A stretch of DNA of 64,000 nucleotides from an uncultured Schlesneria sp. (lineage in GTDB: Bacteria > Planctomycetota > Planctomycetia > Planctomycetales > Planctomycetaceae). Location: positions 1-64,000 of the forward strand of contig CAILLA010000173.1 in NCBI GenBank assembly GCA_903834925.1. The letters run 5' to 3'. The notes under the pieces were generated by a model that did not search any database, had not been told where the DNA came from, and worked only from the letters and a program-made list of their open reading frames with translations. The position numbers and the translations under genes were made by a program. Below, one piece after another: positions 3,607 through 63,008 of this stretch (position 1 is the stretch's first letter; every line of letters begins with the position of its first letter).

Positions 3607-4572
3607 ATGAATCAGATTTTTGTTTGTCTCTTCTGTCTTTCGTTTGCATCGGCACTGATGGCGGCCGAACCAGCAGCCGTCGAAGTACGCCCCGCGAAAG
3701 ACCCAGCGGAACGAAACTATTGGTTGACCAATATGCTGGCACACCAGTTTTCCACAGAGGAAATCGGCATCGCGCTGGGGCTTTCGATTACTGAAGCCAA
3801 AACGCTTGTCGATCGTATTCAACCGTCTGTGGTATCAGATCTCTTAAAACCTGCTGAACCGCAGACGTTGGCTATTCTTCCCTACCCCGGCGGACGACAT
3901 CCTCGAATTGGATTTTTAGACGGAGCTGTTCGACCTCAGCGAGAAACAAAAGTCAGCGTCTTCGCCCCGTGGAAAGAGGGTGGCTACATCGTTGTCGATG
4001 TCCCGGAAGCGGTGTGGCATTTGCGCAACGGAAAGCGCGAACTTTTATATCTCGCACACACGCACGTCCCGACGATCTGGGATCAACAAGGTTTGCAACT
4101 GACGCCACTCGAATGGAAACGAGACGAACCAGGCAAACTTTCCGTCGCTCGCAAACTACCGAATCTGGTCACGCTCGCCACAAAAATCGAATCGGTCAAG
4201 GGAGGAGTCCGCATGGAGTTTTCCATCACCAACGGAACTTCCGAAAAGCTGACGGGTTTGGATATCCAGATGTGCGGCATGCTGAAGGGGCTGACAGGTT
4301 TCGCCGAACAAACCAACGACAACAAAATCTTTGTCGCTCCCTTTGCCGCCTGCAAAAACAAGGAGGGAAACCGCTGGGTCATCCTGGGGTTTGATCATTG
4401 CGTCCGAGCCTGGGGCAATCCCCCGTGTCCATGCCTGCACGCCGACCCAAAAGTCCCCGACTGCGAACCGGGCGAAACGCAAACCGTCCACGGCTGGGTT
4501 TCCTTTTTCGAAGGAACAGAAATCAACGAAGAATTAAAACGCCGGCGCAGTTTCTTAATGCGCGTCGAGTGA
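3607..4572 (+). CDS. secreted protein of unknown function
   Basis: A 321-residue protein with a clear Sec signal peptide (hydrophobic core about 4-17, likely cleavage after ALMAA). I recognise no domain family. Residues 28-60 look helical and resemble a small helix-turn-helix-like segment (EEIGIALGLSITEAKTLVD). The rest looks beta-rich, with a Cys cluster near the C-terminus (NPPCPCLHADPKVPDC). The ATG at 3607 has AAAGGAA just upstream; the longer frame from 3469 overlaps the methyltransferase gene and is rejected. The last codons and the TGA stop lie inside a repeat copy (4559-4605). Confidence 0.75.
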   Translation: MNQIFVCLFCLSFASALMAAEPAAVEVRPAKDPAERNYWLTNMLAHQFSTEEIGIALGLSITEAKTLVDRIQPSVVSDLLKPAEPQTLAILPYPGGRHPRIGFLDGAVRPQRETKVSVFAPWKEGGYIVVDVPEAVWHLRNGKRELLYLAHTHVPTIWDQQGLQLTPLEWKRDEPGKLSVARKLPNLVTLATKIESVKGGVRMEFSITNGTSEKLTGLDIQMCGMLKGLTGFAEQTNDNKIFVAPFAACKNKEGNRWVILGFDHCVRAWGNPPCPCLHADPKVPDCEPGETQTVHGWVSFFEGTEINEELKRRRSFLMRVE

Positions 4573-4605
4573 TGGGTTCAGAACAGGGTGATCGATCGCG
4601 CGTTG
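4559..4605 (+). repeat. family B repeat, copy 1 (supplies a stop codon)
   Basis: About 47 bp that begins TGCGCGTCGAG, contains GGTTCAGAACAGGG and ends CGCGCGTTG. It aligns over its whole length with the reverse strand of 13446-13492, and in part with 4711-4747 and 56381-56421. It covers the final codons and TGA of the 3607-4572 gene. Confidence 0.75.
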
Positions 4606-4642
4606 GACGACGGGATGAGAAAAGCGTTATCAATCTCGAGTT

Positions 4643-4683
4643 AACCAGGTGAGCCGGGAAGCGTCAGCTCTTGGACTCTTCCC
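4643..4683 (+). repeat. family A hairpin repeat, copy 1
   Basis: Layout: AACCAGGTGAGCC, an imperfect stem, a GTCA loop core, then GGACTCTTCC. It aligns with 4742-4783 and the reverse strand of 13321-13361. The stem includes G-T wobble pairs, while the flanks and GTCA are conserved. Confidence 0.65.
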
Positions 4684-4710
4684 AGCACACGCGGTTGTCG
4701 GTCGTCGGAA

Positions 4711-4747
4711 GACGGGTTCAGAATAGGGCCATCTCTTCTGCGTTGAC
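4711..4747 (+). repeat. family B repeat, copy 2 (partial)
   Basis: Contains GACGGGTTCAGAATAGGG followed by a diverged TCTGCGTTGACC end. It directly abuts family A copy 2, as family B copy 1 precedes family A copy 1, so A and B tend to travel as a pair. Confidence 0.6.
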
Positions 4748-4783
4748 CAGGCGAGCCGTGGATGTCAGACCACGGATTCTTCC
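4742..4783 (+). repeat. family A hairpin repeat, copy 2
   Basis: A perfect 6 bp stem CCGTGG/CCACGG encloses ATGTCAGA, with flanks GACCAGGCGAG and ATTCTTCC. The stem bases differ from the other copies but still pair. Confidence 0.65.
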
Positions 4784-4836
4784 GGCATCGTTGAAGTTGC
4801 GATTTTTCGTTTTTTGAGGCGAGGGCAAGAACTCAA

Positions 4837-4868
4837 CGCAAAGTCGCCAAGGCGCAAGGACGCAAAGA
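4837..4868 (+). repeat. CGCAAAG low-complexity repeat
   Basis: An AACGCAAAGTCGCCAAGGCGC-type repeat. An inverted copy lies at 5374-5410. This class of short repeat is widespread in environmental bacterial genomes. Confidence 0.6.
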
Positions 4869-19197: not shown

Positions 19198-22100
19198 TGA
19201 ATGCACTCATTCGTTTCGCCTTGCAGAATCGATTGCTGGTTGTCTGCCTGTCGCTGGTAACGCTGGTCCTTGGTTCGATCACGATGGCACGTCTGCCGAT
19301 CGATATCTTTCCGAGTTTGACTCGACCACGCGTTGTCGTAATGACCGAATGCCCCGGACTGGCTCCTGAAGAAGTAGAGACACTCGTCACGCTTCCATTG
19401 GAAACCGCTCTGAATGGTTCGACGGGAGTCCTGACCGTGCGAAGTTCTTCGGGAATCGGGCTGTCGGTCGTTTATGTCGAGTTTGGCTGGAGTTCGGATG
19501 TTTATCTGGCTCGGCAAATCGTCAATGAACGGATCGCGACGGTGCTTGGTCGCATGCCGGCAGGAGTCAAACCCGAACTGGCGCCGATCAGTTCCATCAT
19601 GGGGCAGATCATGATGGTCGGGTTGTACAGCCGAGACGGCACGACGTCACCGATGCAGGTTCGGACTTTCGCGGAATGGGTCGTCCGTCCCCGCTTGCTG
19701 ACGATTCCCGGTGTGTCGCAAGTCATTCCGATGGGTGGGGGACGAAAGCAGTTTCAAGTGCTGGTTGATCCGAATCGCCTGGCGGCTCATAACGTCACGC
19801 TGGCTGAAGTCGAAGCGTCGATCGGCGAAGCGAATCAGAACGCGACGGGTGGGTATCTTGAACGAGGTTCAATGGAATATCTGGTCCGAGGCTTGGGACG
19901 AATTAAGTCGAAAGAGGATCTCGCTCAATCTGTGGTTAAGAGTTCCAACGAGCGACCTGTGCTGCTGCGCGACGTGGCAAGTGTTGAAGAACGGCCTCAG
20001 TTGAAACGGGGGGATTCGTCCGTGAACGGACATCCCGCCGTAGTGCTGACCATCGGGAAGCAGCCGACGGCGGACACTCGTCAATTGACAGAAGAGATCA
20101 CCAGGACCTTTGAGAGCCTTCGGGGATCGCTGCCGAAAGACATCGAACTCGTTACGGAACTCTATCAACAACGTGAATTCATCGACCGTGGAATTCACAA
20201 CGTTTTTGAAGCCTTGCGCGACGGAGCGATTCTTGTTCTGATCGTGTTGTTCCTGTTTCTGATGAATTTTCGGACCACGTTTATCACGTTGACGGCCATT
20301 CCCTTGTCGATCGTGATCACCGGACTGGTTTTCTATTGGTTCGGCATCTCGATCAATGTCATGACATTGGGGGGGCTGGCGGTCGCGATGGGTGAACTGG
20401 TGGATGATGCGATCGTCGACATTGAAAACGTCTTTCGTCGCCTGAACGAGAACGCAAGATTGTCAAATCCGAAACCGGTGCTGGAAGTGGTTTACCATGC
20501 GAGCATCGAAATCCGCAGCTCGATCGTGTTCGGTACGATGCTCGTGATTCTGGTATTTATCCCGCTGTTCGCGTTATCGGGGATCGAAGGCCGACTGTTC
20601 ACACCGCTGGGGATTGCGTACATCGTTTCGATTCTCGCTTCACTGGTTGTTTCGCTGACGATCACACCTGTCCTGGGAAGTCTTCTGCTGAGTGGTTCAG
20701 CCACCGTGGCCGACGCTGCTAGCGTCGGACGAGACATTGCTGGTGTCAGAAACGTCAATCGTAACAATGCCGACGCTAGCAGCGTCGGACACGGTGGCGA
20801 CAGCCCGCTCTTACGACTTCTCAAACGATGGGTCACTCCCGTCATCCAGACAAGCCTTTCACGAACCGGATTGACCGTGATCCTCACAATTGTCAGTGCG
20901 GCGATTGCGGCCAGTGTCGTACTCGTGCTGAATCTGGGTACCGACTTTCTACCCGCATTTGATGAGGGAGCCGCTCAAATCAATTTCGCTTTACCACCCG
21001 GTTCATCGCTGGAAGCATCGAATCGAGCAAGCCAAATGGTCGACGCGGCACTCGCCACGCATCTTCGTTCGGCTGACAAGAACCCAACCGGCCTGGTATC
21101 AGCGTTCGTACGCCGAAGTGGTCGGGCCGAAATGGATGAACATGCTGAAGGGGTCAATGTCACGGAATACATTGTCACGCTGAATCCGAAGAGTGGACTG
21201 ACCCGAGCCGATGCTTTGGCAACGCTGCGGAAGGAACTGGACGATGTTCCCGGAATCGAATACGAAGTCGAACAGCCGCTGGCTCATCTGATGAGCCACA
21301 TGCTGTCGGGCGTGACGGCTCAAATCGCGATCAAAGTGTTTGGCGATGACCTGGATGTTCTGCGACAGAAGGCGGAGCAGATTAAGAACTCGCTGGGGAA
21401 CATTCCTGGTCTGTTGCCACCCGTTGTCGAGTCGCAACAACTGATTCCGCAACTTCGACTGGAATTGAACCGGGAACAACTGGCTCTTTATGGTCTGACA
21501 GCGGGTCGAGTTAACGAATTCATCGAGACGGCAATGAACGGTCGAGTCGTTTCGACGGTACTCGACGGGCAGCGGACGTTTGACCTGGTTGTGCGATTGA
21601 ATGACGAATCTCGAACCGACATTGAGGCGGTACGACGTCTGTCGTTGACGCTGCCTGGAGGAGGTCGGATACCTCTTTCAGCGGTGGCCAAAATCTATGA
21701 AGCGGGTGGTCCGAATACGATTAACCATGAACGGACCCGTCGACGGATTGCGATTCGCGGCAACGCAGCGGGTCGAGACCTGGGGAGTGTCGTGGCAGAC
21801 ATCCGACGTGCCGTGGCCAAGATCGACATGCCAGAAGGCTATTTTGTCGAATACGGTGGTCAGTTCGAAGCTCAACAAGAAGCAACTCGGCAAATCGCGA
21901 TCATGAGCATTGTGTCGGTCGTCGGAGTCTTTCTTGTCCTGTACACGCTATTTCCATCGACGACGATCGTGCTGCAAATCATGTCGGCGTTACCAATTGC
22001 CTTTGTGGGTGGTGCCTGTTCGTTGTGGTTAACCGGTCAGACTTTGACGGTGGCGAGTCTCGTCGGTTTTATTTCTCTGGGTGGTATTGCGGCACGGAAC

Positions 22101-22412
22101 GGGATTCTGCTGGTTTCACACTACCTGCACCTGATGCGTGAAGAGAGTGAAGGTTTTACGGAATCGATGGTCGTTCGCGGCAGCCTGGAACGACTGGCGC
22201 CGGTCCTGATGACGGCTTTGACGGCGGGAATCGGGTTAGTTCCACTCGTGATGGGTGGGCAACAGCCTGGCAAGGAGATTTTGTATCCTGTGGCCACCGT
22301 AATCCTTGGGGGGTTGATTACGTCAACGATTTGTGAGTACGTCGTCCACCCGGGATTGTTCTGGCGATTGAGTGGAACGTCGGCGGAACGACTGGCGAGA
22401 AAAGGTTTGTAA
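19197..22412 (+). CDS. heavy-metal RND efflux pump (CusA/CzcA family)
   Basis: A 1071-residue proton-driven inner-membrane pump exporting metal cations. Features: N-terminal helix, then porter domain with LARQIVNERIATVLGRMPAG, helices TM2-TM6 with MGELVDDAIVDIENVFRR, a hallmark of the HME-RND family, a second porter domain and TM8-TM12. Length is slightly above the usual ~1040. About 33 of the extra residues come from an in-frame palindromic insertion at 20701-20797, in the loop after TM6. Substrate (Cu/Ag or Zn/Co/Cd) cannot be fixed by eye. Confidence 0.93.
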   Translation: MNALIRFALQNRLLVVCLSLVTLVLGSITMARLPIDIFPSLTRPRVVVMTECPGLAPEEVETLVTLPLETALNGSTGVLTVRSSSGIGLSVVYVEFGWSSDVYLARQIVNERIATVLGRMPAGVKPELAPISSIMGQIMMVGLYSRDGTTSPMQVRTFAEWVVRPRLLTIPGVSQVIPMGGGRKQFQVLVDPNRLAAHNVTLAEVEASIGEANQNATGGYLERGSMEYLVRGLGRIKSKEDLAQSVVKSSNERPVLLRDVASVEERPQLKRGDSSVNGHPAVVLTIGKQPTADTRQLTEEITRTFESLRGSLPKDIELVTELYQQREFIDRGIHNVFEALRDGAILVLIVLFLFLMNFRTTFITLTAIPLSIVITGLVFYWFGISINVMTLGGLAVAMGELVDDAIVDIENVFRRLNENARLSNPKPVLEVVYHASIEIRSSIVFGTMLVILVFIPLFALSGIEGRLFTPLGIAYIVSILASLVVSLTITPVLGSLLLSGSATVADAASVGRDIAGVRNVNRNNADASSVGHGGDSPLLRLLKRWVTPVIQTSLSRTGLTVILTIVSAAIAASVVLVLNLGTDFLPAFDEGAAQINFALPPGSSLEASNRASQMVDAALATHLRSADKNPTGLVSAFVRRSGRAEMDEHAEGVNVTEYIVTLNPKSGLTRADALATLRKELDDVPGIEYEVEQPLAHLMSHMLSGVTAQIAIKVFGDDLDVLRQKAEQIKNSLGNIPGLLPPVVESQQLIPQLRLELNREQLALYGLTAGRVNEFIETAMNGRVVSTVLDGQRTFDLVVRLNDESRTDIEAVRRLSLTLPGGGRIPLSAVAKIYEAGGPNTINHERTRRRIAIRGNAAGRDLGSVVADIRRAVAKIDMPEGYFVEYGGQFEAQQEATRQIAIMSIVSVVGVFLVLYTLFPSTTIVLQIMSALPIAFVGGACSLWLTGQTLTVASLVGFISLGGIAARNGILLVSHYLHLMREESEGFTESMVVRGSLERLAPVLMTALTAGIGLVPLVMGGQQPGKEILYPVATVILGGLITSTICEYVVHPGLFWRLSGTSAERLARKGL
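20701..20797. repeat. in-frame palindromic insertion in the RND pump gene
   Basis: Left arm 20701-20728 and right arm 20770-20797 are inverted repeats of 28 bp with one mismatch. Each arm carries its own smaller palindrome, GCCGACGCTGCTAGCGTCGG. The insertion is translated without a stop as part of ATVADAASVGRDIAGV and NNADASSVGHGGD. Confidence 0.85.
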
Positions 22413-22826
22413 GGCAGTCGACGATAGCGTAAAGGGTCTTTCGTCGCGAAATCGGGGGCGAATGGAAAAGATATGTGCCACTGCTTGACCGTACTCGGTC
22501 AAGCAGTGCTCTTCAGGTTAGAGCACTGGTTTTTCAATGCAAAGACACTGCTTCTCCGAAAACTCCGAAGAAGTGGCACATGAGATTGGCAGACGTTTGA
22601 CCGGCAGTTTCGACCAGTTTTCGTGAGTTTTGGCTTTATTTTTTCGGTTTTGGTCCGGGAAACCCAAGTTCGGGGAAAGTTGTCTTGTCGGAGTTGATTA
22701 TCTGAACTATGTTCCCGTCCTCCATCTCCCACAACACATCTTGCTACACAACTCACGCAACGGTCTGAATTCGTTCAGTCCACAGCGGGTCAAATTTACC
22801 TCCCGATTATCAGGAGCTGCGGAATC
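22413..22826. other. intergenic region with family E element
   Basis: It contains the 105 bp structured repeat at 22475-22579. The remaining ~245 bp before the TPR gene presumably holds its promoter. No gene is seen. Confidence 0.6.
22475..22579 (+). repeat. family E structured element, copy 1
   Basis: Outer arms GTGCCACT…AGTGGCAC. Inside is an 8 bp hairpin CTTGACCG/CGGTCAAG with loop TACT, then CAGTGCTCT, which can pair with AGAGCACTG or with the later GACACTG, and a CCGAAAACTCCGAAG segment. It aligns with 29499-29595 and 62784-62881. Confidence 0.8.
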
Positions 22827-23951
22827 ATGCGTATTGACGGCCTCTTGTCGCCGAGCGGCTTATGTCGCGCACTTGTGCTCGGTCTGGTTCTTTTGAATGT
22901 TGGTTGCAACGGCACCAGCGGCTGGGCCATGAATCGGTCTGGAATGAAACAATATCAGCGTGGGAACTATGCCCAGGCACGACATCAGTTTGCACGAGCG
23001 ATCGCCGACGATCCGCGCAATGCTGACTACCGTTACAATCTTGCCATGGCCGTTCAAAAGCAAGGTGACGCGGCCTCAGCCGAAAAGATTCTGCGACATA
23101 ACCTGACGATTAATGCCATGCACCAGCCGACGTATCATTCGCTGGCTCAGGTCTTGACCAGTCAGGGTCGAACACCTGAGGCTCAAGACTTACTTTTGGG
23201 ATGGGCCGAAACTCAACCGTATGTTCCTGAGTCGCACGTCGAATTGGCCTGGATTCAACGAGAAACGGGTAATGTCGCTGGAGCCGAACAGTCGTTACGA
23301 AACGCGTTGAAAGCTAGCCCAACTCATCCGACGGCACTGGCTCACCTTGGGCAACTGTATCATGAAACGGGTCGTGCCGATGAAGCGACGGCTTACTATC
23401 AACGATCATTGGCCGCGAAATGGGATCAGCCGGAAGTCCAGTCACGACTTGCCACCCTGGTTGAACCTGGAACATCGGGCCGAAGCGGTCGCCGCGCTGC
23501 AATGATGCAGAATCCCTATGATGCTCCGATGGTCGCTGGTGGGCCGATCATGACTTCATCACCGACGATGGCTTCGTCCGTTCCGTTTGGTACCGACGCT
23601 CAAGCCATTGCCCTGGAAGATCCACGCTCAAACCCGCCACCACGCATCGGTCGTAATGGCCGAGTGAATGAAGATGGACAGGTCATTACCGCTTATCCGC
23701 TTCCGAACTTCGATTCACCCGTTATGGCGGGATTGGCGAACGGTTCGATCGCTGGACAGCCAGCAATGGCCTTCCAACCGCCGGTCATCGCCGCTGACCC
23801 TGTGACGGCCCCTCAAATCGTCAGTTCGACAAATTCGCCGAATCCGACTATCGCCAGCGGCCCACCTTTGATACCACAAGCGGATCCAGCCAACTGGACT
23901 GCAACGCCTGCTGAAATGACCGCTTCAATGCCTGTGGTCGATCCACACTGA
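22827..23951 (+). CDS. TPR-repeat lipoprotein
   Basis: 374 residues. A lipoprotein signal peptide ends LLNVGC with the lipidated Cys27. Residues 37-215 contain about five tetratricopeptide repeats (YQRGNYAQARHQFARAI, ADYRYNLAMAVQKQGD, PTALAHLGQLYHETGR). The C-terminal 150 residues are a Pro/Ser/Met-rich, low-complexity tail. It is likely a membrane-anchored scaffold for protein contacts on the periplasmic side. CAGGAG lies 14 nt upstream of the ATG. It is the first of a run of same-strand genes with short gaps to 29402. Confidence 0.85.
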   Translation: MRIDGLLSPSGLCRALVLGLVLLNVGCNGTSGWAMNRSGMKQYQRGNYAQARHQFARAIADDPRNADYRYNLAMAVQKQGDAASAEKILRHNLTINAMHQPTYHSLAQVLTSQGRTPEAQDLLLGWAETQPYVPESHVELAWIQRETGNVAGAEQSLRNALKASPTHPTALAHLGQLYHETGRADEATAYYQRSLAAKWDQPEVQSRLATLVEPGTSGRSGRRAAMMQNPYDAPMVAGGPIMTSSPTMASSVPFGTDAQAIALEDPRSNPPPRIGRNGRVNEDGQVITAYPLPNFDSPVMAGLANGSIAGQPAMAFQPPVIAADPVTAPQIVSSTNSPNPTIASGPPLIPQADPANWTATPAEMTASMPVVDPH

Positions 23952-23971
23952 TTTTCGAGATCCTGATTCCG

Positions 23972-24742
23972 ATGTCCGTTTCTGAACCGAACCATCCAGA
24001 TACACTGGAATTTCGTCACCATCCTCAGTCAGTTGCTGGTCAACCAGAAGAGTTACCGGCGATTCCTGGAGGCTGGACCGAGCGCGAATGGACGATTGAA
24101 GGACGATCATTTCGATTGACACTTCCGGCAGAACCGGATGCGTTTCTGGAAGACCCTGAAGTTCATGAGGCCTTTGATCGCGACCAATATATGCCCTATT
24201 GGGCCTATCTCTGGCCTTCGGCGTTAAAAATGGTCTCGTCGATCCTGAGATACAAATGGCCCGCTGAAGCCGAAGTCCTTGAGATCGGAGCGGGAATCGG
24301 GATTGTTGGTCTGGCAGGACTGGCATGCGGCCTGAATGTCACGATCAGCGACTATGAACCCAAAGCGGTCGATCTGGCGATGTATAATGCTCGTCGGAAC
24401 GGTTTCGTGAAGGGACAGGGGCTGGTTCTCGACTGGCGATCGCCTCCGGCTAAGCAGTTTCCCATCCTTTGGGGTTGCGAGCTACTTTACGAAGATCGCA
24501 ACCACGAACCGTTGCTGGAATTGATTCGAAAAATGCTGACGCCGGACGGCGTCGCATGGTTTGTTGACGGTGGCCGGATGCGAGCCGAACGGTTTTGCCA
24601 GCTTGTGCCACAATATGACCTGGATATCCAGCTATATGACGAAGAACGGCAACCGATTGCTGCCCCGCGAGTGGGTCAATACCAACTGATCGAAATCCGG
24701 CACCGAACGACGGTCGATTCTCAGGTTCACAACACGTATTGA
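23972..24742 (+). CDS. class I SAM-dependent methyltransferase
   Basis: 256 residues. After an N-terminal region with WAYLWPSALKM comes the SAM motif VLEIGAGIGIVGLAG, then ISDYEPKAVDLA as the acidic loop, and PILWGCELLYEDR. This order and the WAYLWPSA signature resemble the METTL21/FAM86-like (Methyltransferase_16) group that methylates protein lysines. That is a family inference; the target is not known. It lies 20 bp after the TPR gene, so the two are probably co-transcribed. Confidence 0.8.
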   Translation: MSVSEPNHPDTLEFRHHPQSVAGQPEELPAIPGGWTEREWTIEGRSFRLTLPAEPDAFLEDPEVHEAFDRDQYMPYWAYLWPSALKMVSSILRYKWPAEAEVLEIGAGIGIVGLAGLACGLNVTISDYEPKAVDLAMYNARRNGFVKGQGLVLDWRSPPAKQFPILWGCELLYEDRNHEPLLELIRKMLTPDGVAWFVDGGRMRAERFCQLVPQYDLDIQLYDEERQPIAAPRVGQYQLIEIRHRTTVDSQVHNTY

Positions 24743-24806
24743 CCCTTTTTGCCGATTCGCCCTACGATCCCGCCCCTAAGTGGCTTCGGAAGGGGATTAG
24801 CCCGTC

Positions 24807-26066
24807 ATGGCATCGACGGTCGGTTGGAATTTCTGGTTTTGGCTTACGCTATTCGTTGCGCTCGGATTGCGTCTGGGGTTGGCGTTTGCCGTTCAGCATG
24901 AAGTTTCAAAAACCCCGGGCCGACTGTGCCTGATTTCGGGTGATGCTGAAGGATACTGGGAACTGGCTGGACACATTGCCGCTGGTGAAGAGTATTCGAT
25001 CTTCGACCCGCCACGTCGCTTGTTACGAATGCCCGGTTTTCCTGCGTTACTTGCGCTGCCGAGATACGTGTTTGGCGACAATCCCTTCGCCGCCCGCATC
25101 CTGCTCGCCATCATCGGTACAATTGCCTGTGGACTGACTTTCTGGCTTGGTCGCGAACTGGCTGGTGAGACAGTTGGTGTGATGGCAGCCGCGTACACAG
25201 CGGTCTCGCCCGTCATGTCCTTATTCAGCGTCATGTTCTTGAGTGAAACAGCTTTCGCAGCCGCAATGCTTGCGAGTCTGATTGCCGCTGCAAAACTGGC
25301 CCGAAGCAAACGGAAACCCGGTCCGTTAGCTAAGGGTCAATTCGGTCTGGCGACTCAGACGGGGGCATTGGTTGGACTGGCAACCTTTATGAGGCCAACG
25401 TGGCTGTTGGTGGGACCCGGATTGTCGGTTCTGTTTCTGTTCTATGGAAATCAGTCCGTACGGTGGAAGTTGGCTGTTTCACTTGTCATCTGCCTTGCCT
25501 TGGGAATTGTCCTCGCACCGTGGACGGTCCGTAATGCGTGGGTCACCGGTCATTTCGTGCCCACAACCTTATGGGTCGGACCGAGCCTTTACGACGGGTT
25601 GAACCCTGATGCCACGGGCGATAGCGATATGGAGTTTTTTGAAAAGGATCGATTGCTGCAGACGATGAGCGAATTTGAAATGGACCGCGAGTACCGGCGA
25701 CGTTCCTGGGCCTTCGCCGCTTCGCACCCACAACGAGTGATTTGGCTGGCGCTGGTGAAGCAGGTACGTTATTGGAGTCCCGCACCGAATACACCTCAGT
25801 TCAAACATCCGTTGATTCATACGGTCGCCTGGCTGGCCTATGCCCCGCTGATCCTGTTTGCAGGTCTCGGAGCCTGGTTCTCACGCCGTGACATCTGGTT
25901 GTTGATCCTGACTGCGGCCCCCATTTTCTATTTCGCATTGTTGCATCTGTTGTTCGTCGGCTCATTACGATATCGCCTGCCTGCCGAGTATCCGCTGGCC
26001 GTATTGGCAGCAATCGGTTTCACCCGATTGCTTCACGTCAATCAGCCTGCTCTTAACGATCAATAA
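24807..26066 (+). CDS. GT-C type membrane glycosyltransferase (PMT/ArnT-like)
   Basis: A 419-residue polytopic membrane protein with about 9-10 hydrophobic helices. The first periplasmic loop has GDAEGYWELAGHIA, where the Asp-Glu pair occupies the catalytic position of PMT_2/ArnT-like enzymes. These use polyprenyl-phosphate sugars. The later segment FMRPTWLLVGPGLS is also typical. The acceptor could be a protein or a lipid. AAGGGGA lies about 11 nt before the ATG. Confidence 0.8.
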   Translation: MASTVGWNFWFWLTLFVALGLRLGLAFAVQHEVSKTPGRLCLISGDAEGYWELAGHIAAGEEYSIFDPPRRLLRMPGFPALLALPRYVFGDNPFAARILLAIIGTIACGLTFWLGRELAGETVGVMAAAYTAVSPVMSLFSVMFLSETAFAAAMLASLIAAAKLARSKRKPGPLAKGQFGLATQTGALVGLATFMRPTWLLVGPGLSVLFLFYGNQSVRWKLAVSLVICLALGIVLAPWTVRNAWVTGHFVPTTLWVGPSLYDGLNPDATGDSDMEFFEKDRLLQTMSEFEMDREYRRRSWAFAASHPQRVIWLALVKQVRYWSPAPNTPQFKHPLIHTVAWLAYAPLILFAGLGAWFSRRDIWLLILTAAPIFYFALLHLLFVGSLRYRLPAEYPLAVLAAIGFTRLLHVNQPALNDQ

Positions 26067-26108
26067 TTTCATTCAGTTTTGAAGGTATTTCCTTCCTCAT
26101 AACGAGAC

Positions 26109-29100
26109 TTGAACGTGGCCGCAATCCTCAGATGGATGATCGTTCTCGTGCTGCTTCTGGCAGTCGTGGGAGGCGGTGCGGCATATTGGTTATACGTTCG
26201 AAGTGACGAAGAGCTAAGGCTGATGGTGCTGCGCCAGCTAGAAGCGATGTCACCGACAGTTCACTTCGAGATTGCTCGAGCGCAATGGGACATGACCGGT
26301 CCCGTCGTCCGGATTTACGGACTGACGATTCGTTTGCCTGATGACGATGACGAGAAACCTTCTTTCGAAGTCCCCCTGGTTGTGGCCGCGCTCGAATCGA
26401 ATCAACTGGCCGATTTCGAGAATGTCGTCATCCAAAAACTTCGTGTCATCAATCCAACAGTACGGGCTGTTCGTGGCCCTGCCGGAGACTGGAATTTACG
26501 ACAGTTGGCATTTACGTCATCGTCGGGATCAGTTCTTCCTGATGTCGAAGTGGAACACGGGACGATTTCGGTCGAGTTACAATTACCTGATCGGAGGTCT
26601 CGACGACTGAAGTTCCAAAACTTCAAAGTGATGGCGACCCCGAAGGATTCTCGACGATTGGCGATTCAGATCGAGACGCTGCTTGATCCTGCGGGTCCCC
26701 TGGCTCTCGACATCGACTTCAATCTTGATGGACCGACATGGGAATGTGTCTCGAGTGAACCTTGGCGTGTCCCGGTCAATTCAGGAACGATTCAGCTTCT
26801 CTGCGACCTCTACCCGGGGTTGGAGACGCATGTTGCAAAAGCCGCAGACTGGATTGAGAGTGTGAAGCCCCAACAGGCGGAAGTCACACGATCGGGACAG
26901 TCAGGTGCTGCGTTAAGGTCTGGAGGTCCGGTTGATCCGAAATCGCCCTATCCGGACTTCGGCCTGCGGTGTGCGTGCGATCTGACATTTCAATTAGGCC
27001 AGCACGAACCAGGTGCCAATTTAACATACCGTGTGCTCGCTTCGATCGTTGACGGGCAAATCGATCACGAACTACTGCCGTTCCCGTTCCACGACTTGCG
27101 CGGAAATATTTATGTTGATAATCATCGAGAGATCAGTGTTAGTGACATCCGAGCATCGAATGGTCCGGCGCAACTGGCCTTCGATGGAGCGGTCGTTCCG
27201 AGCAAGCCGATTGAAGGGACCCTCAAGTTGCGAGGGATCGAACTGAACGACGCGATTATATCCCGATTACCAGACACACTACGTGATATTGTTCAAAAGC
27301 TTGGCCTGACAGGCGAATGCGACGCCGATGGCACCCTGGTTTTAGACGGTGGAGTCTGGCGACCGGAACTCGATCTGCGAATCTCACGAGGGACCGTCAC
27401 CGAAAAACGATTTCCCGTGACCGTTCGAAACGTTGAAGGGGAATTGCATATTCGGAACAGTGTGGTCACGTTTGACGCCAAAGGGAAATACGCCGGACAA
27501 CCGGTCCTCGTCAAAGGGATCGTCAAAAATCCTGGCCCGGCGCACGAGGCGGAAATCGTACTCAAGAGTAAGAATCTGCCGTTAGATGATGAATCGGTTG
27601 CGGCATGCCCGCCGGAAGTCCGTCGAGCCATTGAGGCGATCAAGTTAAGCTGTCGTCATGATGTCTGGTTGAAACTCAGCAGAGCCGCTGGGCTTGGCAA
27701 CAAATACAAGCCAGATCTGATCGAGACAGTTTACGACGGCAGCCTGAATTTTCACGGATTCCCTTATACGATTGAACAATTGCGAGGTCGCGTGAGGTGG
27801 ACCGGCGACGTTGTTCAGTTTACGGAACTTGAGGGGATTCATGCCGGTGCGACATTGACTGGTCGAGGGACGTTTGAGCGCCAGGCCAAGTCGAGTCTGC
27901 TGGAACTGTTTATTGATGCAAATGAAGCGTCGTTCGATCGCTCGCTGAAAGCAGCGCTGCCCGCAGCACTCGTTGAAGTCTGGAACGATTTTCAGCCGCA
28001 AGGGACATTTGACGTCAAGACGGAAATTACGTGGGCCCCCGGAGAACCGTGTCACGTCGTGATCCCTTCGGTCAAGGTTCGCGATGGTGCGGTCAACATC
28101 CGATGCTTCCCCTGGTCACTTCAAAAGTTGACCGGAGAATTCTCGTTCAATACCGAGCCCGGCAAGCTTGAGATGAAGCAACTACAAGCCCAGCACGACG
28201 AGACACGTCTGACTGCCCACGGAGTCGGCTGGTTCCCCAGCGGTGCTCCCTGGTCATTAAAATTCGACCAACTTAATGTCGATCATTTGGTCCCCGACAA
28301 GTCCTTCTACAACGCAATTCCCCCCGCAGTACAACACGTCATGGACGTTCTGCGACCGATCGGCGACTTTTCGTTTGATGGTCCTGTTGAGTTTTTCGGC
28401 TCGCCACGCAGCGGCGATTCGGTCGGTGCCCTTTGGAATTTGCGGACCGAACTGTCGCATTGTTCAATGAACGCGGGTCTTCCGTTGGACGATATTAATG
28501 GAGCGGTTCAATTGAAGGGTCGATGGGACGGCGTACAGACCGAACTCAAGGGTGAGCTGGATCTGAAGTCGGTCTCTGTGTTTCGCCATGCTTCTGGAAA
28601 ATCTTATCAGATCAACGATATTCAAGGACCATTTTCTTTTCACGACCGAGAGTTCGTTGCCGGAAGCAAGGCAGGGGTTCCTCGGCGAAAGGTTGCTCCC
28701 GAACCGGAAAAGCGGATCAGAGGTAAAGCGGTTGGTGGAACCGTTTTTCTGGATGCCGTAGTCGACATTCAGGACGAACCCGAGTATCGGGCAGTCGTCG
28801 AACTCAAGAATGGACAACTTGAGCAGTACGCACAGAAGTATCTTCGAGGTCAAGACCATTTGGCGGGGGTAATGAATGGTGCGATGTCCCTGCGCGGTAA
28901 AGGATCGAATGCCGACAGCATGGAGGGTGAAGGAAGCTTACGGATCGCTCCAGCATCGCTTTACGAATTGCCTTTATTCGTCCAGATGTTCCAGATGCCG
29001 CAATTGCGAGTTCCCGACAGAACCGCGTTTGCGCAAGCGGATTTACGATTTACCATTGCAAACAGCCGATTCGACTTCAAATCCATTGAGCTTCTCGGTG

Positions 29101-29402
29101 ATGCAATGAGTCTGCGCGGTCGGGGCTTCGTCGGTTTTGACGGCAGAATGGATCTGGAGTTTGGTTCGCATCCTGGCCGCGGTTCCCGTCGATTGCTTCA
29201 AAACCTGTTCATGGGGGCTGACTGGATTGCAGTCAGAGTTACCGGAAACGCTGGTAACCCGACAGTGAGGTATGTCCCGTTTCCAGAACTCGACGACACC
29301 TTTCGCCAGTTTCTCGGTGCAATGGATTATCGACAAATGGCACCGTCTCGACCAATGGTCCCACCACGTACTGGCCAAAACCCAAACGAAGCCAATCGCT
29401 GA
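26109..29402 (+). CDS. AsmA/YhdP-like large envelope protein
   Basis: 1097 residues. One N-terminal transmembrane helix (about 8-31) is followed by a very long beta-rich region with alternating hydrophobic strands. Stretches such as GRGFVGFDGRMDLEFGSH near the C-terminus are typical of AsmA-like proteins. Members of this group (YhdP, TamB, AsmA) form bridge-like channels that move phospholipids between membranes; that role is inference here. The first codon is TTG (26109); a GTG at 26115 is an equally good start. It starts 42 bp after the glycosyltransferase gene. Confidence 0.75.
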   Translation: MNVAAILRWMIVLVLLLAVVGGGAAYWLYVRSDEELRLMVLRQLEAMSPTVHFEIARAQWDMTGPVVRIYGLTIRLPDDDDEKPSFEVPLVVAALESNQLADFENVVIQKLRVINPTVRAVRGPAGDWNLRQLAFTSSSGSVLPDVEVEHGTISVELQLPDRRSRRLKFQNFKVMATPKDSRRLAIQIETLLDPAGPLALDIDFNLDGPTWECVSSEPWRVPVNSGTIQLLCDLYPGLETHVAKAADWIESVKPQQAEVTRSGQSGAALRSGGPVDPKSPYPDFGLRCACDLTFQLGQHEPGANLTYRVLASIVDGQIDHELLPFPFHDLRGNIYVDNHREISVSDIRASNGPAQLAFDGAVVPSKPIEGTLKLRGIELNDAIISRLPDTLRDIVQKLGLTGECDADGTLVLDGGVWRPELDLRISRGTVTEKRFPVTVRNVEGELHIRNSVVTFDAKGKYAGQPVLVKGIVKNPGPAHEAEIVLKSKNLPLDDESVAACPPEVRRAIEAIKLSCRHDVWLKLSRAAGLGNKYKPDLIETVYDGSLNFHGFPYTIEQLRGRVRWTGDVVQFTELEGIHAGATLTGRGTFERQAKSSLLELFIDANEASFDRSLKAALPAALVEVWNDFQPQGTFDVKTEITWAPGEPCHVVIPSVKVRDGAVNIRCFPWSLQKLTGEFSFNTEPGKLEMKQLQAQHDETRLTAHGVGWFPSGAPWSLKFDQLNVDHLVPDKSFYNAIPPAVQHVMDVLRPIGDFSFDGPVEFFGSPRSGDSVGALWNLRTELSHCSMNAGLPLDDINGAVQLKGRWDGVQTELKGELDLKSVSVFRHASGKSYQINDIQGPFSFHDREFVAGSKAGVPRRKVAPEPEKRIRGKAVGGTVFLDAVVDIQDEPEYRAVVELKNGQLEQYAQKYLRGQDHLAGVMNGAMSLRGKGSNADSMEGEGSLRIAPASLYELPLFVQMFQMPQLRVPDRTAFAQADLRFTIANSRFDFKSIELLGDAMSLRGRGFVGFDGRMDLEFGSHPGRGSRRLLQNLFMGADWIAVRVTGNAGNPTVRYVPFPELDDTFRQFLGAMDYRQMAPSRPMVPPRTGQNPNEANR

Positions 29403-29661
29403 GTCGTGAATGACATTCCAAATGTCTCAGCCTTCGTTCGACTTTTCATGCGGTTTCGTTCAACCACTGCAAGTGCGCTGTCCACTCTAAACATTCGGGT
29501 GCCACTGGATGACCGTCTTCGGTCACCCAGTACTCTTCAATCGCCTCGAAAATAGGGAAGCCACTGCTTCTCCGAAGACTCCGAAGCAGTGGCACAGGAT
29601 CCTAATTCAGCAGTTTGACAACGTACTAGTCTCGATAAAGACAGGTGATTACAATCCCAGT
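29403..29661. other. intergenic region with family E element
   Basis: It contains family E copy 2 (29499-29595). The open frame upstream of the nuclease start (29509-29661) lies mostly within this repeat, so I treat it as non-coding. Confidence 0.6.
29499..29595 (+). repeat. family E structured element, copy 2
   Basis: Outer arms GTGCCACTG…CAGTGGCAC (9 bp perfect). Inside: TGACCGTCTTCGGTCA hairpin, CAGT and CTCTTC with later GAAG and ACTG, and GCTTCTCCGAAGACTCCGAAGC forming a third hairpin. Confidence 0.8.
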
Positions 29662-32600
29662 ATGTCAAACGTCACGATTGTTACTGGCATTGCAGGGGTA
29701 GGTAAAACAGCCAGGCTGCTCGAAATCTATCGTGCCGCACTGGAACGCGGCCGAACGGATCGTCGACCGGGCACAACACTCTGGCTGACACCGACTCATC
29801 GCATTCAGAAGTTTGTGTCTCAACAAATTGCTGACCAGTGTGGGGCCGTCTGTTTTGCTCCGAACGTTTTGACATTCGACCGGTTTGCTGTCCGGATTCT
29901 TGAAGCAGCGGGACGACCAGCGTCTCCGATTTCGCCCGTGATGAAGCGGTTGCTGATTCGGCGAATTACAGCAGCGCTTAAGGAGCGAGACGAACTTCGT
30001 TACTTTCAACCGATCGTCGGAACGACGGGATTCTATGACGTGATTTCCAGCTTTATCAGTGAATTGAAGCGGGAAGAAATCTGGCCAGAAACGTTTGTCG
30101 AAGCGTGTCAGCAACGGACGACAAGTTTTGCCAGGCGAGATCTGGAAGTGGGGCTTGTCTATTCTCGTTACCAGCAGCATCTTGTCGATCAGAACTGGTA
30201 CGACAATGAAGGTCGATTCTGGTTGGCTCGGACAGCGCTGAGTGAGGGAGTTCGTGGTCCATTCGCGGGAGTAAAGACTCTGGTTGTCGATGGTTTTGCA
30301 GATTTCACTCAGACGCAATACGAAATCCTTGGATACATGGCGAGCTGGATTGATGAAATCTTCATCTCGTTGCCGGCCGAACAGCCATCCACTCGAAGCG
30401 ACCTGTTTGCGAAGCCCCAAGCGGCGATTGCACGAATTCAAGAACAGTTGCCTGCGAATTCAACGTATCGAGTGGAAAGACTGTCGCCACAACAGATTCA
30501 TTCCCTGTCCGTGAAGTCTGTTCGAATTATCGCAGAACGACTTTTTGCAAATCCCCGTCTGGTAGAGCCATCATCTGTTGCGGAGGGGCTGGAAATCATT
30601 GAAGCGATTGGCCTCTCCGCTGAATGGGAGGCAATCGCAGGTCGGATCAAGGGATTGTTAAATCGCGGAAGACAACATCGGGATCAACAATCACGATCTA
30701 CAAGTCCAATGACAACAATACAGCCGCAGGACATTGTCATCGGACTTCGTTCCATTTCGGATGACGGTCCGAGATTGTGTCAGTACCTTGCTTCTGCAGG
30801 ATTGCCTGTGTGGTGCGAGGCAGAATCTGCATTCACATCAAGTCCCATTGTTCGCGCCGTCTTATCGTTGTTGCAATTGGAGTTGGAAGATTGGCCGTTT
30901 GAACGATTACTTGCTGTCCTTGATTCCTATTTTTTCCAACCCGGCTGGGCTGAACTGGAATCTGGTCGAGCGATTCGAGCCGTTGCAGCGTCGCTTCGGT
31001 ATCTGCGAATCGACTCGGGCCGCGACGTCATGCTTCGCGCGCTGGGACGCTATGTCTCTGACACACAGAATCCGCCAGGAACGCGGGGAGATTCGTTGGC
31101 CGAGATGGCAAAATTGGCCGCGCCTCTGTTGACGCGATTATCAAAAGCCATGGAGCGGCTACGGCGGTCCCACACGTTGAACGACTGGGCCGATGTCCTG
31201 GCCGGATTGGGTCATGATCTGGGATGGAAACGCCGAATCGACGCGGCAAGTGACGAACTATCAAGAAATGAATCCCGCGACCTGGACTTGTTGCAGCGAA
31301 TCTTGCGAACCGCTGCCGAGGCCGATCAAAAGCTTGTTGGAACCTCACGGGCCCGATCATTAACTCTTGCTGACTTTGCTTCAGAGCTACGTGATTTGCT
31401 CAGCCATGAAACGTTAAATTCGGAAATAGAAACGGACGGTTGCATTCGAATACTCGGCGTCGACCAGATTCGGAATCTCGATGTCCCGCACCTGTTTCTC
31501 ATGGGACTAACAGAGAACAGCTTTCCGACGACGCGTTCCGACGACTGCCTTTTCAGCGAGTCAGAACGTCGTGACTTCATTTCTCGCGGCGTGGCGCTGC
31601 GGCATCGATCGGAACATCACGCAGACGAAATGCTCCTGTTTTACAGTGTTGTCACGAGGGCCAGGAAAAGCCTGACGCTTAGCTACCCTGCCGTGAATTC
31701 CAAGGGCCAGCCAGTATTCCCAAGCCCTTACGTCACAGCATTGAAGTCACTCTTTACCAGCGATTCACTTAAGCAGACTCTCGAAGGACAGCTCAATCCG
31801 GTACCGTCCGTTGATCGATCAATCACAGCAACTGACCTGCGTCTTTCGGCCATGACACAAGCTCGCGAAGGTCATCCCGAATTATTTCGAGCGATTCTTG
31901 AAATCGACACTCTTCGAAAGCGGGCATTCAATACACTCGCCGCCTGTGAAGTGGCCGGTGATCGATTCCAAGAGCGGGGGTTTACGAAATTTGAAGGCCG
32001 GCTTGAACTGCCGCAAAACCTGCAAGGGCTTCGGCAACGATTTGGTGCCCAACATCAGTTTAGCGCAACGGAATTGGAAAGCTATGCACGTTGTCCGTTC
32101 CAATTCTGGTTATCAACGGTCTTGCGAGTTGGTGCGGTTGAAGCACCTGAGGAAGGAACGGACTACGCAGCGCGAGGGACTCTGCTGCACGAAGTCTTGG
32201 CCAAGCTCTTGATCGAAGGAGCTTTGGCCGATCCCGAGGCACTCAAAAATCGGTTTTGCGAACTCGTCGATTTGCAGCTCGATCGTCACGTTCCCGCAAC
32301 TGAGCTGCAACGAGCACTGATAAAAATCGAAGGCTTGATTCTTAAACAATGGGCTGACGCATTCGTCGAACAACAAGGTGAATATGACGAGCGCGTTGAC
32401 GAAGTGATTAAAGAAACGCAATCACTCGCTCCCGAAATTCCCTTTGGACGGCTACCCGAAGTGACTTCATCGACAGTGGATGTCCATCCAGCAATCGAGT
32501 TTGGCCATGGCAACGATCGGGTCAGCCTTCGAGGCCGAATCGATCGCGTCGATGTAGGCTCGTACGAAGGACATCCGGCCTACGTCGTCATCGATTACAA

Positions 32601-62595: not shown

Positions 62596-63008
62596 GTCTG
62601 GCAGTTCAGAGGGCACGCATCACTCGCAAAGACCATGACGGACGAGAGATGCTCGCCGTAACTCACGACGTCACGGACGATTACGCACTCCCTTGTTGGA
62701 CTTCGCATTCTAGGTGGCAAAAAGATTCCCAGCAATAGCGATGGAACGGGTTGTCGCTGATCAACTTTGAATCTCGGTGTCGGGTGCCACGGTTTTACCG
62801 TCTTCGGTTAAGCCGTGCTCTTCGGAAATGTTATCGAACCATGAAGACACGGCCTAGTCGAAGACTCCAAAACCGTGGCACCCCGAGTTCCGAATATGAT
62901 TCCGTTCATCAGGAGCAACACTAGTGTGCTACGCCAGTCGGGCCGTTTCACCAGACCAGCCTCGCCCTGCATTTGGGTTGCAGGCGAAGCCCGCCACGTG
63001 AATTAGCG
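62596..63008. other. intergenic region with family E element
   Basis: It contains family E copy 3 (62784-62881) and a GGGTTGCAGGCGAAGCCCGCC-type palindrome near 62970-62992. No gene is seen. Confidence 0.6.
62784..62881 (+). repeat. family E structured element, copy 3
   Basis: Outer arms GTGCCACGGTTTT/AAAACCGTGGCAC pair perfectly over 13 bp. Inside: ACCGTCTTCGGT hairpin, GCCGTG and CTCTTC paired with GAAGA and CACGGC, and AGTCGAAGACT hairpin. Both arms differ from copies 1 and 2 yet still pair. Confidence 0.85.

Follow-up and report, generated by a model that had tools for sequence, protein, structure and literature searches.

It is very probable that the three repeats in the window (the whole stretch of 64,000 nucleotides analysed, C173:1-64000) are REPINs, whose most likely cognate enzyme, a RAYT (TnpAREP, an HUH Y1 transposase), is encoded on another contig. 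The repeats are inverted doublets present in high copy number and placed outside genes, the hairpin covaries over the full set of copies, and individual copies are present or absent at orthologous sites. Both in this genome and in relatives, a RAYT gene has these elements on its two sides. Points against this reading are the GTGC foot, the imperfect match between RAYTs and elements in sister genomes, the covariation pattern within subfamily I, the flanks shared in subfamilies I and III, and a half element beside an IS200-type gene. An earlier note on this DNA had known of no named function for such repeats, a statement that the link between REPs and RAYTs supersedes.

The copies lie at 22475-22579, 29499-29595 and 62784-62881, exactly where the earlier note had placed them, and the common arms, hairpin and CTCTTC block that it described were recovered in each. 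All three begin with GTGCCAC and end with GTGGCAC, and all three contain a hairpin of the form ACCG-loop-CGGT, which reads ACCGTACTCGGT in copy 1 and ACCGTCTTCGGT in the other two. The CTCTTC block is likewise present in 3/3 copies, while CGAAGACTCC, found in copies 2 and 3, is replaced by CGAAAACTCC in copy 1. In an alignment that includes 10 bases on each side, 60 of 126 columns are identical across the three copies. In each element a single kind of unit occurs twice, the second time inverted, as two related hairpins of ~34 nt, REP A and REP B. Half A comprises a GTGC foot, a 30-nt hairpin and then CTCTTC; half B, on the opposite strand, comprises GTGC, a hairpin and then a TCTT- or GCTT-type sequence. 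The features in the window are as follows.

22475-22579, plus strand: copy 1, REPIN of subfamily II (A hairpin TGCTTGACCG/CGGTCAAGCA), with a degenerate counterpart at the orthologous site of the same-genus genome G005
22475-22508, plus strand: REP A of copy 1, foot GTGC at 22475-22478 and hairpin at 22479-22508
22546-22579, minus strand: REP B of copy 1, foot GTGC at 22576-22579 (minus strand) and hairpin
29470-29629, no strand assigned: outer 160-bp unit enclosing copy 2; its CTAGTGCGTTGTCAA-type terminal inverted repeats are decayed (3 and 1 end mismatches, by themselves at chance level in the window)
29499-29595, plus strand: copy 2, REPIN of subfamily III (A hairpin TGGATGACCG/CGGTCACCCA)
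29499-29532, plus strand: REP A of copy 2
29562-29595, minus strand: REP B of copy 2
62760-62997, no strand assigned: approximate block enclosing copy 3, part of the larger subfamily I repeat, missing in G005 and degenerate in G002
62784-62881, plus strand: copy 3, REPIN of subfamily I (A hairpin GGTTTTACCG/CGGTTAAGCC)
62784-62817, plus strand: REP A of copy 3
62848-62881, minus strand: REP B of copy 3

In the window a strict first-half pattern was matched by copies 1 and 2, with 0.00 matches expected; copy 3 deviates from it. The ORF downstream of copy 2 begins at 29509, within the element, in the mechanical ORF list, and has an alternative start, ATG 29662, that is conserved in three relatives. 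The earlier view that all copies lie between genes therefore extends to copy 2 only if this ORF starts at ATG 29662, and fails for it with the listed start.

The window belongs to a genome assembly of 9,022,638 bases (9.02 Mb) in 307 contigs (G000), in which the half-unit pattern GTGCCACN{20,35}CTCTTC was matched 221 times (121+100, a few of them overlapping) against 5 times (3+2) for the reversed pattern. A covariance model built from the three copies returned at least 150 candidates, each with E < 1e-12 (150 of 1511 first-look candidates were scored); the reading as an element dispersed in many copies is supported. From the fetched stretches 105 full elements were recovered, 72 of them 97-98 bp long; copy 1 of the window is absent from this set, probably because its B stem is degenerate. 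For the analysis of covariation 99 elements were kept, three of the other six having an ambiguous orientation and three another arm type, and all 99 differ from one another. Some copies form tandem arrays, for example at locus L025 (starts 1444, 1585 and 1726). Among same-genus genomes the pattern counts were 93 in G001, 87 in G005, 41 in G002 and between 2 and 18 in each of the eleven others. Mean pairwise identity within a genome was 0.88-0.97 for the halves, 0.35-0.68 for spacers of modal length and 0.30-0.57 for the 15 bp beside the ends, a contrast that partly reflects the selection of copies, as the finder required near-intact ends.

The fourth base of the left foot was C in 91, G in 4, T in 3 and A in 1 of the 99 elements (GTGC 91, GTGG 4), a count that the finder favours, since it tolerated at most one mismatch to GTGCCAC. 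With GTGC and a 30-nt hairpin the unit has the form of a REP, namely a hairpin of 20-40 nt whose foot directly adjoins, on the 5' side, a tetranucleotide that is conserved and unpaired, and the inverted doublet with a less conserved spacer, in high copy number and outside genes, has that of a REPIN. The left foot, GTGC in 91/99, falls outside the GT[A/G]G that marks canonical REPs and the GTAG superfamily.

As the earlier note had supposed, the element is structured. When folded as RNA, copies 1-3 gave z-scores of -5.7, -4.2 and -8.6 on the plus strand and -8.4, -4.5 and -9.8 on the minus strand, with 0 of 200 shuffles folding equally well for any copy or strand; as DNA, the plus strands gave -4.9, -5.2 and -8.4. 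Paired changes also exceeded those of shuffled alignments, in line with the covariation expected by that note. Across the 99 elements, both sides of a pair had changed in the REP-A hairpin 114 times, at 7 of its 13 pairs, and 12 additional pair types were seen; no value was equalled in 300 shuffles. This null leaves shared descent uncontrolled, and some of the variant copies are tandem duplicates. Within subfamily II alone, 22 both-side-change cells over 6 pairs were counted (0/300 shuffles reach this). The excess is absent from the REP-A hairpin of subfamily I (4 cells, reached by 121/300 shuffles), and subfamily III hardly varies. REP B gave 80 cells over the 99 elements (0/300), and its covarying pairs showed no excess (176/300).

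A long fold with an outer and an inner stem was considered as a conserved structure over all copies and rejected. Its paired fraction and cells lie above shuffles in the 99 elements, but neither its covarying pairs (outer stem 59/300, inner stem 52/300 shuffles reach the observed number) nor its pair types (outer 111/300, inner 68/300) do so. Among the window copies it is taken by copy 3 alone, in both RNA and DNA folding. It may nevertheless form within subfamily I, where the long outer stem exceeds shuffles (4 cells, 0/300), three of these cells reflecting a foot that becomes GTGG at the two ends. Over all copies the paired changes support the short REP hairpin over the long fold, except within subfamily I. 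The two paired changes first described as independent are present in the sequence, but they fall on the same four positions of the element (8, 31, 68 and 91). From one subfamily to another these positions change jointly; they amount to one subfamily switch and so cannot discriminate between the short and the long fold.

The RAYT of this genome was found via P0001, a protein of the same-family genome G017, in which RAYT genes lie between inverted GTGCCACTGGC hairpins (L122, L126). P0001 matches contig C171 at 4201-4743, within an ORF of 239 amino acids (4123-4842, minus strand; locus L169) that is situated between full A/B elements of the window type, starting at 3861 and 4831, with further partial elements adjoining. 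The first codons of the ORF overlap an element, and its true start is therefore probably later. The orthologous locus of G001 (L170/L260) is organised in the same way, with a larger number of copies to either side, and its protein is 87% identical. At both loci a tnpAREP gene is thus flanked by the dispersed REPs of its own genome, the arrangement known as a REPtron. The C171 protein scored 90.2 bits against NF047646 (REP-associated tyrosine transposase; cut-off 80) and 18.5 against PF01797, under the cut-off of 23. A structure model predicted from 33 relatives (mean pLDDT 84.5) had as its best PDB match in Foldseek the complex of TnpAREP and a REP hairpin in 4er8 (E 4.2e-9, 22% identity), followed by IS200/IS605 transposases. 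In the alignment of 33 RAYTs His94 is invariant, and His96 and Tyr182 are each conserved in at least 90%. The HuH motif of the C171 protein reads EHVH and its Y---NP motif YIHQNP. These motifs, together with the predicted TnpAREP fold, place the protein among the RAYT/TnpAREP enzymes of class 2 TnpAY1; class 3, with Y----Q and a CnGA foot, fits neither YIHQNP nor GTGC.

The presence of this enzyme and the abundance of the elements do not always coincide among same-genus genomes. In G005 and G002 the closest RAYT is only 29% and 27% identical, respectively, despite 87 and 41 units; the elements there may have outlasted the enzyme or moved without it, or the gene may lie in an assembly gap. G006, G012 and G013 have RAYTs of 63-67% identity but few pattern matches (13, 12 and 5), presumably because their REPs differ in sequence.

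The association was examined across relatives using 30 RAYT loci listed for P0001 in 119 relatives (with a match in 89/119), 30 listed for P0002 in named genomes and the locus on C171, from which one duplicate was removed (n = 60), and hairpins were sought within 400 bp of the gene. GTG[C/G]CAC hairpins were found on both sides of the gene at 26/60 loci and on one side at 11/60 (at least one side, 37/60). Another 14/60 had only a different GTG[C/G]C hairpin (GTGCCAT, GTGCCCT, GTGGCTG and others), giving 51/60 with any GTG[C/G]C hairpin and 9/60 with none; the foot at the relatives' RAYT loci is GTGC or GTGG. Random 600-bp stretches of the window's own genome had GTG[C/G]CAC hairpins on both sides in 0/2000 cases, on one side in 132 and another hairpin in 45, and the same loci away from the gene gave 0/1334, 58 and 136. 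The P0002 matches listed come from Schlesneria, Blastopirellula, Pirellula, Planctomyces, Phycisphaerae and other Planctomycetota, and include one Zixiibacteriota and one Deltaproteobacteria record.

Other Y1-type genes are present in the genome. None of its ten PF01797 matches lies between such elements (eight stretches were fetched). An IS200-type gene on contig C306 (NF033573, 61.8; cut-off 55) has a half element, cut by the contig end, at a distance of ~270 bp, which leaves room for another Y1 enzyme as the partner. Several same-genus IS200-like genes have an upstream GTGCCAC hairpin (L125, L128, L129). On contig C49 a Y1-type ORF of 261 amino acids (L048:5873-6658) has a circularly permuted PF01797 match, with a RYVSEQ part before the HUH part (PDHVHLAI); it matches NF033573 in two stretches (49.8, cut-off 55), and inverted repeats of another hairpin family flank it. 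On contig C37 (L041:1-7583) an IS200/IS605-type transposase ORF (76.3 bits, cut-off 55) lies between cas4 and cas1 of a CRISPR-Cas operon in which Cas1c scores above its type I-C cut-off, Cas4 and Cas3'' above theirs, and Cas7/Csd2 and Csd1 below. Further PF01797 genes on contigs C257 and C262 (L045:637-1236 and L045:3827-4519, L046:95-538, all on the minus strand) adjoin or sit within ORFs that appear RHS-like by eye; the two of these three that were scanned scored 63.0 and 61.8 against NF047646, under the cut-off of 80.

Flanking sequence beyond the REPIN is common to copies within subfamilies I and III. In subfamily III the common flank measures ~30 bp per side and terminates in CTAGTGCGTTGTCAA and its inverse. 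Exact CTAGTGC[G/T]TTGTCAA ends (15 bp) occur 16 times in the genome against 0 for the reversed sequence, and four exact pairs, each 160 bp apart, define terminal inverted repeats at a fixed distance and hence an outer unit of subfamily III. Such 160-bp CTAGTGCGTTGTCAA-ended units carrying a REPIN were observed at L244-L258 and in the window at 29470-29629. Of 12 units located by the CTAG end alone, 11 contain a REPIN, some of them of subfamily II type. The sole unit without one (L259, contig C304) has a Y1-type ORF ~1.1 kb away (L349:4162-4983, minus strand), with no second end around that ORF. By eye this ORF, at that distance from a lone CTAGTGCTTTGTCAA end, appears Y1/RAYT-like (SNHYHFV, YVHQNAVHHG); its first part has no NCBIfam match. 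Copies of subfamily I, including copy 3, have longer common flanks with imperfect inverted repeats of ~90 bp per side (consensus, by eye), and a reading of the consensus gives a unit of ~280 bp with long imperfect inverted repeats. The outer part of this larger repeat has a consensus of approximately GGGAGGGCGAGGCTGGCC (inverse of the right flank) and corresponds in the window to about 62760-62997. A scan of viral contigs for the CTAG end gave 29 matches to a 16-mer, estimated to be at chance level.

These outer units allow for two unrelated movers, a RAYT using the GTGC guide and a putative transposase acting on the CTAG-tipped 160-bp unit with the REPIN as cargo; we regard this as a possible arrangement, though a doubtful one. 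If it is correct, REPINs would escape dependence on their own RAYT and could persist in sister species without it. Somewhat less likely still is that the element as a whole is a MITE of a DDE-type cut-and-paste transposon, with GTGCCAC or the outer CTAG sequences as ordinary terminal inverted repeats and a transposase acting on double-stranded ends. The fixed 160-bp pairs and the REPINs inside 11/12 units would suit such an element, as would the three empty sites of copy 2 (G001, G002 and G005), each with a single CTAG at the right junction, where intact units have CTAG at both ends; this is consistent with duplication of CTAG, although the left flank aligns weakly and the pattern is not proof. 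Against this, direct duplications at the GTGCCAC ends do not rise above chance (k = 2: 1 observed, 5.8 expected), subfamily II has almost no common flank, full A/B elements flank a RAYT gene, and no gene was found between two CTAG-type ends in the stretches fetched for the 12 exact-end units of this genome. A MITE may apply to the outer unit as a second layer around the REPIN.

In a 1.06-Mb sample enriched for copies, 3 of 84 full elements lay inside an ORF compared with 59.9% of random positions, a containing ORF being defined heuristically (at least 450 bp long, with the position at least 200 bp from its start). This count supersedes a looser one that included short ORFs (24/84 elements inside, 81.6% of random positions), in which the containing ORFs mostly resembled short ORFs between longer ones. 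For the 66 elements with two known neighbours, these were in tandem in 39, convergent in 20 and divergent in 7, whereas, of random outside positions flanked by two neighbours, about 26% lie between divergent genes. Extragenic placement and the scarcity of divergent neighbours (7/66) would both be expected of transcription terminators or stabilisers of mRNA 3' ends that spread through their usefulness to the host, and 3 of the 12 terminator-like sites found in 22000-30000 do fall within elements, copy 1 holding two of them and copy 2 the third. The same scan gave no overall excess (9.2 expected), its sites in copies 1 and 2 are weak and internal, no T-run directly follows the ends of the three copies, and the linkage to RAYT is left unexplained. 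We consider such an origin improbable; a role in termination is possible as a secondary effect.

Individual copies were compared with orthologous sites in the same-genus genomes. Copy 2 is missing from the sites in G001, G002 and G005. Copy 1 is degenerate in G005, and the corresponding stretches of G001 and G002 could not be aligned. Copy 3 is degenerate in G002, the ~238-bp block around it is missing in G005, and the G001 row could not be aligned. In the two orthologous pairs available (copy 1 with G005, copy 3 with G002) the halves are identical at 67/80 and 67/80 positions, the near flanks at 34/41 and 53/71 in the first pair and at 34/43 and 57/79 in the second, and the spacers at 10/24 and 16/18; these pairs give no clear sign of selection holding the halves of each copy. 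A structured non-coding or cis-regulatory RNA kept for its fold is scarcely credible: strong folding on both strands, covariation, halves that are 0.88-0.97 alike beside divergent spacers and near flanks, and transcription of REPs, plausible elsewhere according to the available text of PMC3733652, all speak for it, but Rfam gave 0 matches at gathering scores in the window, copies are uneven between sister species and missing at orthologous sites, in the two orthologous pairs the halves have diverged to about the same degree as the flanks, mobile DNA accounts well for the tandem arrays and the link to RAYTs, and the identity within genomes is explicable by recent copying and the demand for near-intact ends. 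The selection on a folded RNA in particular that the earlier note had put forward is not supported; copies come and go between sister species and are extragenic and RAYT-linked. Its other suggestion, a mobile palindrome, is supported.

For REPINs served by a RAYT, the most likely mechanism is that REP hairpins form when the DNA becomes single-stranded, for example on the lagging strand, and that RAYT would then recognise foot and hairpin and cleave beside the hairpin with its tyrosine. The position of GTGC suggests that it could be recognised as the guide, and the C171 RAYT would be responsible for single-strand cleavage and copying. The REP doublet would in this way be copied or moved into new extragenic sites without target duplication, and some subfamilies are, or were at one time, carried within larger repeats (the 160-bp CTAG-ended unit and that of ~280 bp).

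The closest known counterparts are the REPINs of Pseudomonas fluorescens SBW25 (Bertels and Rainey 2011, PMC3116915), which, in the portion of that paper available, are likewise inverted doublets with a less conserved spacer, extragenic and in many copies, with compensatory changes and a RAYT beside its own REPs. The present elements differ from these in the GTGC foot, in the distinct REP types A and B of each doublet, in the occurrence of some copies within larger repeats and in their host, a member of the Planctomycetota. With the REP/BIME and TnpAREP system of E. coli (4er8; class 2 TnpAY1, PMC6006769) they share the Y---NP motif, the REPtron arrangement and, as modelled, the HUH-Y1 fold, and the pairing of two REP types recalls the Y and Z2 of E. 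coli described in the available text of that survey. Unlike in E. coli TnpAREP, the HuH motif is EHVH and the foot is GTGC rather than GT[A/G]G, with 22% identity by Foldseek.

The GTAG/CGTC tagged REPs of PMC3733652, whose hosts in the available text include Planctomycetes, are also short hairpins tagged at one end, in inverted pairs and mostly extragenic; GTGC fits neither CGTC nor GTAG/GYAG/GYRG/GTRG/GTMG/GTGG as given there, and the string GTGCCAC is absent from the main text. Class 3 TnpAY1 proteins, reported in the available part of PMC6006769 from Planctomycetes, Acidobacteria and Proteobacteria, similarly pair a Y1 protein with many copies of atypical hairpins, but with Y----Q and CnGA in place of Y---NP and GTGC. 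Canonical REP families have the foot GT[A/G]G in that text, and since this large survey searched automatically for the GT[A/G]G form, REPs with a GTGC foot could have been missed. A search of open-licence full texts, supplements excluded, and including a text search for GTGCCACTGG, gave no paper on this element among the top matches.

The elements represent an unusual branch of a known kind of miniature mobile DNA rather than a new RNA. A REP type that is present in many Planctomycetota thereby gains a candidate partner enzyme and a foot tetranucleotide outside GT[A/G]G, which offers a test of how RAYTs read their guide sequence. Sister species with and without the RAYT offer a test of whether REPIN populations need it, and the nesting in larger repeats raises the question of whether REPINs can ride other transposons.
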